Positions 710-2,200 of a stretch of DNA of 64,000 bases are shown one piece after another. Source of the stretch: Microvirga lenta. Its GTDB lineage: Bacteria > Pseudomonadota > Alphaproteobacteria > Rhizobiales > Beijerinckiaceae. The stretch is from assembly GCF_020532555.1 (NCBI RefSeq), contig NZ_JAJBBR010000002.1, positions 248,001 through 312,000 on the forward strand, given 5' to 3'. Positions within the stretch are counted from its first letter, which is position 1, and every line of letters starts with the position of its first letter. The position numbers were made by a program, and so were the translations under genes. The notes under the pieces were generated by a model. That model was not told where the DNA came from and searched no databases. It saw only the letters and a program-made list of their open reading frames with translations.

Positions 710-1024
710 TCAGTCGAACTCCGCCACGCCCCCCACCAACTCACGCGGTGGATTGCGCCAATCGAGCGGCCTCGGCTCGTCTCCTTGGCGGATGACGTGC
801 CACTGGCCGGTTGCGTCCTGCACCACGCCGTAGACGAGGAGGCTCCAGGTCTCCGGGCGCGGACGCCGGATGGCCCGCACAATGTCGCGCAGGCCCCGCA
901 CCACCAGCCACGTGACCCCGAGCACCATTCCCGGAACAGCGACGAGCCAAAGGGCCTGGATGGCGTCCGACGAGGTGTGGAACTTGTTGAGCAGGTCGGC
1001 CCAGACGGAATAGGGCTGGTCCAT
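710..1024 (-). CDS. Hypothetical one-TM membrane protein
   Basis: 104 residues, not recognised. The start at 1024 (MDQPYSVWADLLNKFH) is chosen because a GGGGGAG ribosome binding site lies just upstream, whereas the longer open frame runs into a structured leader. One hydrophobic segment (about residues 20-45, ALWLVAVPGMVLGVTWLVV) is followed by a basic stretch (RAIRRPRPE), suggesting an N-out/C-in membrane anchor. The C-terminal half (residues 55-104) contains VYGVVQDATGQWHVIRQGD and looks like a small globular domain. It is the first gene after the structured RNA at 1073-1221 and a terminator-like hairpin, so it may be controlled by attenuation. Function unknown. Confidence 0.6.
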   Translation of the reverse strand: MDQPYSVWADLLNKFHTSSDAIQALWLVAVPGMVLGVTWLVVRGLRDIVRAIRRPRPETWSLLVYGVVQDATGQWHVIRQGDEPRPLDWRNPPRELVGGVAEFD

Positions 1025-1053
1025 GGCAAAACTCCCCCTTGAAACCAAAACGA

Positions 1054-1072
1054 CCACCAGGAGCCCTGGTGG
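1054..1072 (-). terminator. Terminator-like hairpin in the leader of the one-TM protein
   Basis: A perfect 8-bp stem (CCACCAGG / CCTGGTGG) with a 3-nt loop, followed on the minus strand by a T-rich run (GTTTTGGTTT). It sits between the structured RNA and the start codon at 1024, the usual position of an attenuator or of the 3' terminator of a small RNA. Confidence 0.55.
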
Positions 1073-1221
1073 CCGGGGAGCTAGAAAGCCGCCGCAAGAC
1101 GGCCGCATTGGCCTTTAGGCTTTCGCCCTGGACATGCGCCAACACCTCCCCGACCGTAAGGTGAGGGAGGCATCGTTGCGGTCGATGCCGACCGCTTGCG
1201 GACAGGGTTTCTAGGCCCCGG
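1073..1221 (-). ncRNA. Candidate structured leader RNA or small RNA
   Basis: Long-range complementarity closes this 149-nt segment: ccgggg (1073-1078) with ccccgg (1216-1221), and ctagaaa (1081-1087) with tttctag (1208-1214), separated by a small internal loop. Inside, ccctg (1126-1130) pairs with caggg (1203-1207), and cctccc (1145-1150) with gggagg (1165-1170). Two 7-bp hairpins, 1169-1175/1183-1189 and 1178-1184/1189-1195, overlap and exclude each other, a switch-like arrangement. A terminator-like hairpin follows on the minus strand. I cannot match it to a riboswitch or sRNA family by eye. Strand is inferred from the downstream gene and the terminator. Confidence 0.5.
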
Positions 1222-1309
1222 AGCCAGGTGCGCCCGGCTCTGCAGCGAGGCTTAGCATGGGGCGCAGGCGGGGCAAAGCAGGATCGGACTTCATGGGGAT
1301 GGATGCCCG

Positions 1310-2200
1310 TCAGGGCATGGTGATGACGTCGGTCATGTGTGGGGATTTCGGCTCCGCGTTCAGGCGCCGGCGCTTGGCGAGGATGATCGTGCCGTTGAGT
1401 TCGCCGCCGAACAGGAAGATCGCCCCGAGCGTGTAGAGGAAGATGAGCGCCACCATGGCGGTGGCAAGGCCGCCATAGGTCGAGGCATAGGCGCCGGGGA
1501 AGAATTCCAGGTACCAGCCGAAGACGAGGCCGCCGAGAAGCCAGAGCAGGAGCGTCACACCCACACCCGGCAGCACCGCGCGGAAGCTGCGCCGGCCGGC
1601 GGGGACGAATTTGTGCGCGATCAGGAGGCCGGCCACGATGACGATGGTCGCGACGCCGAGCCTGAGGAAGTTGATCACCTCCGAGAAGACGGAGAGCGCG
1701 GGCACCCAGTAGAGGATGCCGCGCCAGACGAAGGGCCCCAGCACGACCAGCAGCGCGAGCGCCAGCATCACGAAGGCGCCGCCGATGACGAAGGCGATGG
1801 ATTCCAGCCGCGTGAGCCACCATGCCCTTGTTTCGCGGACGCCATAGGCGCGGTTGAGGCCGACCCGCAGGCTCTCCACGCCGCTGGATGCGAAGTAGAG
1901 GGCGAGGACGAGGCCGATGGTCAGCACGTCGCTGCGCCGCCCGGTGAGGATCTGATGGACCTCGTTGGCGATCGGCTCCGCGATTTCCCGGGGCCAGGCC
2001 TCGAGGATGATGTCGGCCGCCTCGTCGGCAAGAGACCCGGAGCCGAAGAGACCAGCCAGCGCCGTCATCAGAATGAGGAACGGGAACATGGAGGTGAGAA
2101 CCGACAGGGCGATATGGCTCGCGATCGCCCACGCATCGTGGAGCACGAAGCGGTTGGCAGTGATCGAGAAAATCTCGAAATAGAGGCGCAGACGGTTCAA
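1310..2200 (-). CDS. YihY/virulence factor BrkB family membrane protein
   Basis: 296 residues with about six hydrophobic segments in the arrangement typical of the YihY/BrkB family (Pfam Virul_fac_BrkB), which was once misassigned as RNase BN. Family landmarks include the N-terminal amphipathic part (DAWAIASHIALSVLTSMFPF), the central GVESLRVGLNRAYGVRETR motif between TM2 and TM3, and the final segment ending FGGELNGTIILAKRRR. The length fits the family (270-300 aa). It acts in the inner membrane; the molecular function of the family is not established. The upstream 237 bp are shared with the divergent EamA transporter gene. Confidence 0.85.
   Translation of the reverse strand: MNRLRLYFEIFSITANRFVLHDAWAIASHIALSVLTSMFPFLILMTALAGLFGSGSLADEAADIILEAWPREIAEPIANEVHQILTGRRSDVLTIGLVLALYFASSGVESLRVGLNRAYGVRETRAWWLTRLESIAFVIGGAFVMLALALLVVLGPFVWRGILYWVPALSVFSEVINFLRLGVATIVIVAGLLIAHKFVPAGRRSFRAVLPGVGVTLLLWLLGGLVFGWYLEFFPGAYASTYGGLATAMVALIFLYTLGAIFLFGGELNGTIILAKRRRLNAEPKSPHMTDVITMP

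Follow-up and report, generated by a model that had tools for sequence, protein, structure and literature searches.

A leader RNA with conserved alternative pairings and C4-like anatomy upstream of diverse genes in Microvirga and other Proteobacteria

INTRODUCTION

In Microvirga lenta, a near-palindromic stretch of DNA lies directly upstream of a gene for a small protein, and it raises the question of what an RNA with so many competing pairings does at that place. The stretch is found at positions 1054 to 1221 of the window, which is the whole 64,000-nt piece of DNA that was analyzed (contig NZ_JAJBBR010000002.1, positions 248,001 to 312,000); all coordinates below refer to the window. A first-pass annotation made from the letters alone had described a highly structured leader RNA with the layout of a riboswitch or an attenuator. 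Our analysis suggests a different answer, namely that the element is probably a 5' leader that silences its own gene in the manner of a C4 antisense RNA.

C4 RNAs consist of three stem-loops, and RNase P frees them from a larger transcript by cutting at the 5' base of the outer stem; in the pairing with the target, strand b' partly covers the ribosome site and strand a' confers specificity (PMC5320573). C4 and a relative named c4-a1b1 are both listed by Weinberg 2010 (PMC2864571).

RESULTS

The element is a structured leader read from the minus strand

All of the elements named in the first-pass annotation, including the inner stems, were present in the sequence. The closing stem consisted of CCGGGGAGCTAGAAA (1073 to 1087) and TTTCTAGGCCCCGG (1208 to 1221), which formed 13 pairs around 149 nt. 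Two overlapping 7-bp hairpins (GGCATCG/CGATGCC at 1169 to 1189 and GCGGTCG/CGACCGC at 1178 to 1195) were both found, and the mutual exclusion proposed for them was one option, with a pseudoknot being the other. The hairpin CCACCAGGAGCCCTGGTGG (1054 to 1072) did separate the structure from the start codon at 1024, but the terminator role given to it was doubtful here because only CGTTTTGG followed it. The closing strand also had a third partner that had been missed, in a pairing that we named helix S (1146 to 1155 with 1071 to 1080).

On each strand, none of 200 dinucleotide shuffles folded as well as the region itself (plus strand, z = -6.3; minus strand, z = -6.2). Because a near-palindrome folds well on both strands, the strand was not assignable from folding alone; covariation and position indicated that the working RNA is the minus strand. 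On that strand, positions from about 1262 to 1025 formed the structured leader of the gene for a 104-aa small protein (1024 to 710). The parts of the leader and gene were as follows, with the alignment of 47 full copies from the genus being described below.

1251 to 1280, minus: promoter-like stretch 5' of the RNA, kept in the 47-copy alignment just before the 5' hairpin
1221 to 1240, minus: 5' hairpin GAGCCGGGCGCACCTGGCTC, from the alignment of copies
1206 to 1221, minus: decoy b1, the P1 5' strand CCGGGGCCTAGAAACC, partner of b'; compensatory changes in P1
1195 to 1201, minus: decoy a1, the P2 5' strand CCGCAAG, partner of a'; 7-bp P2 with two-sided changes in 7 of 7 pairs (diverse set)
1169 to 1195, minus: two overlapping 7-bp hairpins (1178 to 1195 and 1169 to 1189), alternatives or an H-type pseudoknot, from covariation counts
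1145 to 1171, minus: P4 hairpin with a UUAC loop, its 3' strand being the 5' strand of helix S, from covariation
1071 to 1155, minus: putative C4-like or sRNA-Xcc1-like antisense unit, helix S (1146 to 1155 with 1071 to 1080) around P5, the a' hairpin, and b'; from a sub-threshold RF02221 match, the isolated fold, and covariation
1105 to 1145, minus: P5 hairpin with the conserved core AUGUCCAGGGC-GAAA-GCCUAAAGG, from the alignments
1086 to 1104, minus: a' hairpin with antisense strand a' CUUGCGG at 1092 to 1098, from the predicted fold of the isolated unit
1075 to 1087, minus: antisense strand b' UUUCUAGCUCCCC, complementary to the Shine-Dalgarno (SD) region; 8-nt run with the window's own leader, G-U allowed
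1054 to 1072, minus: 3' hairpin H6 CCACCAGGGCTCCTGGTGG, with only CGUUUUGG after it here and a U-tract in many AT-rich relatives, from the alignment and T-run counts
1032 to 1040, minus: SD region AAGGGGGAG, putative target of b', from duplex tests
710 to 1024, minus: 104-aa protein MDQPYSVWADLLNKFHTSSDAIQALWLVAVP..., a membrane protein by eye, without a family match

In the promoter-like stretch, most genus copies approximated CATTGACCCCGCACCCCTGTTGCGTGTTA, and the window copy carried the variant GCTTTGCC...CATGCTAAG. The P5 core occurred in two sequence types in the family, AUGUCCARGSC..GSCUAAAGG and AAUACAA..GAA.

The RNA recurs in the genus and across the phylum

The genome of M. lenta held eight copies of the element DNA, a repetition that the first-pass annotation had missed. 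By DNA comparison, the element was present in 16 of the 61 genomes searched and in 15 of the 37 genomes of the genus, with the M. lenta genome included in both counts. A covariance model built from 47 genus copies (R1) matched in 47 of 385 class genomes. A second model built from 57 diverse copies (R2) matched in 40 of 249 order genomes and in 51 of 398 phylum genomes, 28 of which were outside the class; the class, order, and phylum samples included the M. lenta genome and partially overlapped. Several copies lay at or near contig ends (G002:C13, G002:C15, G022:C63, and G015:C165), so counts from draft assemblies give minimum numbers of copies.

Positions relative to genes were strongly constrained. 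Reading the minus strand, 44 of the 47 full copies had an ATG at the identical alignment column downstream of the RNA. When the flanks of 28 genus copies were compared, few were shared (6 pairs upstream and 3 downstream). The DNA of the RNA had no match in phage records. At one locus (L092), two copies formed a divergent pair, at 1187 to 1366 (minus) and 1501 to 1666 (plus), with 134 nt between them. A partial DNA match covering 35% of the query was seen on the Shinella plasmid pShin-06 (L293, 4001 to 4095) before a small hypothetical gene, and that gene adjoined a recombinase and a Tn3-family transposase.

For more distant relatives, 95 distal copies were examined, of which the class search had supplied 69 and the phylum search 25, the last being locus L023. 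An SD followed by an ATG that opened a frame of at least 60 aa was found 15 to 65 nt downstream, on the same strand, in 76 of the 95 distal copies; the mirror position gave 6 such cases, and random placement would give 7.7. The excess over the mirror position identified the element as a leader RNA. The proposal of a highly structured leader with mutually exclusive pairings directly upstream of a small-protein gene was supported.

Main and alternative stems covary

The first-pass annotation had suggested a check for covariation among relatives with R-scape. We ran this check with pair counting in place of R-scape, and strong conservation and covariation were observed. RNAalifold predicted 49 pairs from the 47 full genus copies, 19 of them with two-sided changes, and the 7-bp stem P2 showed several base combinations at most of its pairs. 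In the 57 diverse copies, two-sided changes were seen in 45 of the 49 pairs, 95.7% of cells were paired, and the covariation score was 0.719 compared to at most 0.102 for slid controls, which matter here because the 57-copy alignment had been fitted to the tested structure.

The alignment had not been fitted to helix S, which joins the 3' strand of P4 to the 3' strand of P1. In the diverse copies, this alternative pairing was also conserved: 94.7% of cells were paired, 6 of its 10 pairs changed on both sides, and the score was 0.273 compared to at most 0.089 for slid controls. Within the genus, the score of helix S was not above shuffles (255/500) because the helix was nearly invariant there; six genus copies carried matching one-base deletions on its two sides. 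Folding of the isolated window unit predicted an outer stem and two inner hairpins, with b' free, and the outer helix had at least 8 unbroken pairs in 35 of the 47 genus copies.

In the case of the overlapping hairpins, the one at 1169 to 1189 was paired in 93.0% of cells in the genus, and the one at 1178 to 1195 was paired in 90.8% of cells in the genus and 76.9% in the diverse set. For the latter hairpin, the paired percentage and the score were above shuffles, and the number of pairs with two-sided changes was not (190/500 and 289/500). The two hairpins may be mutually exclusive or may form a pseudoknot.

We also counted T-runs of at least 4 nt after the 3' hairpin. Such runs were present there in 33 of the 69 distal class copies, compared to 6.4% of background places, in 2 of 26 copies of the phylum set, and in 2 of 47 genus copies, with the window copy (CGTTTTGG) being one of the two. 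Premature termination is thus probably a component of the mechanism in certain lineages and is weak or lacking in this genus.

Antisense strands match the start region of the downstream gene

The duplex energy of a' or b' with the downstream leader of its own copy was compared to the energies obtained with leaders shuffled among copies. In the 71 class rows, both strands paired better with their own leaders (a', z = -3.2, 2/2000; b', z = -5.1, 0/2000), although the shuffles ignore the kinship of copies, and relatedness inflates this and the following z values somewhat. In a set of 26 copies, which comprised L023 and 25 copies supplied by the phylum search (13 of the 25 being outside the class), a' had a z value of -8.0 (0/2000); b' had a z value of 0 (983/2000) against the 60 nt after the hairpin and of -2.6 (7/2000) when the hairpin was included in the target. 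In 58 sRNA-Xcc1-type copies, which are described below, a' matched its own leader strongly (z = -11.7, 0/2000), and b' was not significant (z = -1.8, 81/2000).

In the 47 genus copies, the matching strand was b' (z = -3.0, 8/2000). A second version of the test gave a z value of -2.85 (19/5000), with the TTG inside GGGAGTTG possibly being taken as the start in some copies, which would have shortened the target. Many genus copies had b' pairing with GGGAGUUG, the runs being 8 or 9 long in 25 of the 47, and the 8-nt run in the window copy involved its own SD, with G-U pairs allowed. The a' strand was at chance level against the downstream leaders of the genus (z = -1.1, 256/2000; second version, z = -0.7), and no target for it was found within 200 nt downstream (z = +0.3). 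Since a' did no better than chance against these leaders, it may be drifting in this genus or may have another target.

The positive control, a' against its own decoy a1 in the genus, gave a z value of -17.7. Together with the covariation of P1 and P2, this value pointed to pairing of the decoys a1 and b1 with a' and b'. The upstream decoys may correspond to the "a1b1" of c4-a1b1, in which upstream a1 and b1 sequences would pair with a' and b'.

Outside the class, the P2 5' decoy recurred at the gene start, as with CCGAAGG, which had CGG after it in P2 and AGC after it at the SD (L164); other loci repeated ACGTATGG (L168), CGATAGG (L161), and further sequences in the same way. In such loci, the P1 5' strand recurred, by eye, in the loop of the 3' hairpin. 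The strand that covered the SD varied, being b' in the class and genus and a' in loci outside the class. The duplex energies against shuffled leaders indicate that, across the family, the RNA is antisense to the start region of its own gene, with the working strand differing by lineage. The predicted accessibility of the SD shifted modestly, from 0.17 in the full leader to 0.06 in the cut leader.

The unit resembles C4 and sRNA-Xcc1 RNAs below the Rfam thresholds

The first-pass annotation had not assigned the RNA to a class. In a scan of the window with Rfam, nothing reached its gathering score. At an E value of up to 10, the sole family found in window 800 to 1500 was sRNA-Xcc1 (RF02221), which matched minus 1154 to 1064 at 29.6 bits compared to a gathering score of 53; the best score among the 61 genomes was 43.7 bits, also under that score. 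The C4 model (RF01695, gathering score of 45 bits) did not match the RNA in window 800 to 1500 (E value up to 10), in 17 loci (E value up to 1), or in 20 loci (E value up to 5). A genuine C4 RNA (RF01695, 54.2 bits) was found at L163, 2062 to 2133 (minus), with a copy of the family RNA about 1.4 kb away.

The predicted anatomy was nevertheless that of the C4 RNAs of phages P1 and P7, with an outer stem, two inner hairpins, and the strands a' and b'. Specifically, helix S would correspond to the outer stem, P5 to the tetraloop hairpin, a' to the 3' strand of P2, and b' to the inner 3' strand of P1. The three-stem arrangement was seen in the predicted fold of the isolated unit and in the way helix S and P5 covaried among the diverse copies. 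As with C4, the unit was just upstream of the start region of the putative target gene, and antirepressor genes followed some relatives. Complementarity to the downstream ribosome-binding site was found for the family, rarely with both strands in one set and with b' only in the genus. At the site 5' of the outer stem, which is GGW in C4 and is used by RNase P, GGC was present in 27 of the 47 copies and GGU in 20, including the window copy.

The family also differed from C4. P5 was longer and had a conserved internal loop, P4 and the overlapping 5' hairpins were additional, and the RNA was frequent in Alphaproteobacteria, with eight copies here. Control of an antirepressor was not apparent for the window copy, which preceded the 104-aa protein; antirepressor-type genes were found only behind some distal copies, and most of the 93 downstream proteins surveyed were not antirepressors. 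In C4, it is b' that covers the SD, in contrast to a' in the loci of this family outside the class (PMC5320573). The same study describes C4-like Group 1 sRNAs of Acinetobacter baumannii that resemble the present family in being multicopy, with a variable a' and apparent processing before the outer stem; unlike the family described here, those sRNAs were recognized by Rfam as C4 (PMC5320573). No paper pairing "C4 antisense RNA" with "Alphaproteobacteria" was found in the literature searched.

The relationship to sRNA-Xcc1 was supported by model matches in both directions, although those of RF02221 to the family were only below threshold. RF02221 covered the antisense unit, with sub-threshold matches in the window and in relatives, and the start of the unit was within 1 nt of the start of the model. 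The conserved sRNA-Xcc1 core, used as a pattern, matched at least 120 public genome stretches, and 80 loci, mostly Proteobacteria by title, were taken. R2, which had been built without any of these loci, matched 58 of the 80 at full length (E value up to 0.01), which indicates that sRNA-Xcc1-type loci usually carry the upstream decoy half as well. All 8 pattern loci that were scanned with Rfam scored above the RF02221 gathering score. The P5 core of sRNA-Xcc1 was AUACAAnACCCGnAAGGGGAA instead of AUGUCCAGGGCGAAAGCCUAAAGG.

SymE-like proteins (PF08845) were encoded behind the Xanthomonas arboricola copy L211 (92 bits) and the Lysobacter copy L219, and a' of L211 was complementary to UCUCGAAGGA at the start site. 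In the papers examined, sRNA-Xcc1 is treated as a trans-acting sRNA and not as a leader that silences its neighbor: an 88-nt sRNA was mapped and its targets were predicted by software (PMC2996969), and sRNA-Xcc1 was noted upstream of symE in integron cassettes, with no such mechanism proposed (PMC12444791). A report on Xylella places IsrK (RF01394) near C4 and sRNA-Xcc1 in one genome and gives sRNA-Xcc1, isrK, and C4, which are at most 400 bases apart in one strain, as separate families (PMC12189769).

Genes behind the RNA are diverse

The usual gene behind the RNA in the genus encoded a protein of about 90 to 140 aa with a hydrophobic segment (MDQPYSVWADWLSKFHTWPEFIQALWLVAVP...), and in some genus copies, an 82-aa protein was found instead. 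The latter protein, M[IVF]FRRKPKPPL...RMERRFHGEPE, was behind the RNA at L042, L015, L066, L067, and L070 and was without family matches; in L050, which is one of the eight copies of the M. lenta genome, the start resembled that of the 82-aa protein. At L017 (RNA at 1509 to 1679, plus) and L054, the gene next after the RNA encoded, by eye, an XRE-type regulator, and at L017, a membrane-protein frame came after the regulator.

The 104-aa and 82-aa proteins were below the curated cutoffs in Pfam and NCBIfam, and no PHROG matched at an E value of up to 1. Across the 249 order genomes, the 104-aa protein had 10 occurrences in 3 genomes, including 7 in M. lenta itself, and each of the 10 was directly behind a match to the RNA model. 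In-frame stops interrupted the match at 3 of the 7 M. lenta places, so not every copy need be active. A plasmid origin of the protein was considered and rejected, since it had no match in 72,556 plasmid records. A phage origin was likewise set aside, as a 116-aa relative had no match in 50,697 phage records and no relative of this 116-aa protein was found in viral contigs.

For the distal copies, 93 downstream proteins chosen by a script were surveyed, with the Pfam counts covering the first 25 of 43 families. Among the matches listed were HTH_3 regulators (7), Rha (6), outer membrane protein (OMP) barrels (5), Bro-N (3), P22_AR_N (2), DUF4268 (2; PDC-S11 in PADLOC), ECF-type sigma factors (2), and DprA-like proteins (2), together with single matches to a DNA methylase, a PD-(D/E)XK nuclease, and ORF6N. 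PADLOC found a type IIG restriction enzyme once, and PHROGs identified several of the downstream proteins as phage antirepressors, in agreement with Pfam. No common pathway was found among the 93 proteins surveyed.

DISCUSSION

On the basis of sequence comparison, the element is a family of RNAs with conserved stems and conserved alternative stems, placed before genes and carrying strands that match the start of the gene behind them. As the best explanation, we propose that the family is a new and widespread form of C4-type antisense control, below the Rfam thresholds for C4 and sRNA-Xcc1 but like both in predicted anatomy.

The transcription, processing, repression, and trans effect that we infer would run as follows. 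Transcription would proceed on the minus strand from a point immediately ahead of the 5' hairpin, and the nascent RNA would present the decoys b1 and a1 first, then the antisense unit (1155 to 1071), and then the targets at the ribosome-binding site of the gene. The unit would have the shape of phage C4, with helix S around the P5 hairpin, a hairpin bearing a', and a single-stranded b'. The strands a' and b' could choose either the upstream decoys a1 and b1, forming the stems P2 and P1 (P1 being the closing stem seen in the first-pass annotation), or the downstream target, which in the genus would be the SD GGGAGUU(G) bound by b'. As long as the decoys held the antisense strands, the SD would be readable. 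Once the unit was folded as helix S or was freed, by analogy with C4 through an RNase P cut before helix S at GGU or GGC, its own SD would be blocked, as would, in trans, the SDs of mRNAs from matching copies.

Several other readings of the locus need to be weighed against this one. A riboswitch, in which the P1 to P5 domain would bind a small molecule and the alternative stems would switch a terminator or the SD, could draw on the conserved and partly unpaired P5 core, on the alternative stems, and on the terminator-like end of 33 of the 69 class copies. We consider it very unlikely, and the earlier suggestion of a riboswitch layout was not upheld: no Rfam riboswitch matched in the window, the 93 downstream proteins lacked a common pathway or a consistent metabolic association, and a riboswitch would not predict that a' and b' are complementary to the start region of each copy. 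It is this complementarity of partner-switching strands to the start region of their own gene, copy by copy, that argues for antisense logic rather than ligand sensing. The attenuator half of the earlier suggestion fared somewhat better and is still unlikely. Helix S, which uses the GRCC base of the 3' hairpin, would then be an antiterminator, the 3' hairpin would terminate, and any antisense activity would be secondary or absent. The shared bases and the U-tracts in the class copies, well above the 6.4% background, fit this arrangement, but T-runs of at least 4 nt are present in only 2 of the 47 genus copies and 2 of the 26 phylum-set copies, and the complementarity to the SD is left unexplained.

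That the sequence is a small mobile palindromic DNA repeat with no RNA function is scarcely credible. Eight copies in one genome and the few flanks shared among 28 genus copies are what such a repeat would give, but it would not account for the compensatory changes, the promoter-like start, the fixed orientation and spacing to genes, or the co-occurrence of RNA and gene at all 10 protein places. A mere dispersed repeat had been dropped for a similar reason, as the copies are fixed in orientation before a start codon. A type I toxin-antitoxin pair, with the small membrane protein as the toxin and the RNA unit as the antitoxin, overlaps the C4-type reading, since it would put a C4-like mechanism to that use; we regard it as possible and, on balance, rather unlikely. 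The RNA and protein do occur together at all 10 places, and SymE, a type I toxin family, is behind two sRNA-Xcc1-type copies (L211 and L219), but other members precede nucleases, regulators, and porins and not only toxins.

The C4-type reading links three topics that have been kept apart in the papers examined: the C4 phage-immunity RNAs, the orphan virulence-associated sRNA-Xcc1, and a large set of Alphaproteobacterial leader RNAs that Rfam does not match. It also suggests that horizontally moving genes commonly control their own expression through self-silencing antisense leaders. A broader proposal, which we offer tentatively and which may well prove too general, is that mobile genes of Proteobacteria (antirepressors, SymE-type toxins, restriction and defense nucleases, and small membrane proteins) carry a silencing cassette made of a promoter, a decoy, a C4-like antisense RNA, and a matching start site. 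Such a gene would be active on arrival in a cell without the antisense RNA, and both it and incoming cognate copies would be shut off once the RNA accumulated, a form of RNA-based immunity or zygotic induction generalized from phage P1, with sRNA-Xcc1 and the eight copies of the window's genome as members. A covariance model for Rfam could be built directly from the copies found.

Two further observations concern the window. The conservation of the P5 core is not explained by antisense pairing, and a protein or RNase site is possible there. Beyond the gene, inverted repeats of the type GTCATTCCGGGGC...GCCCCGGAATGAC at 45 to 200 and 560 to 710 surround a small open reading frame (217 to 552, plus) whose product resembles, by eye, a GIY-YIG nuclease.

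In the case of sRNA-Xcc1, the family relationship provides a likely target in cis, namely, the start site of the gene that follows, such as symE. The Xylella report describes five sRNA-Xcc1 copies about 380 bp apart in Xylella fastidiosa Temecula1, at 1313466 to 1315082 (PMC12189769), and this spacing is as expected of repeated modules of an RNA plus a small gene.
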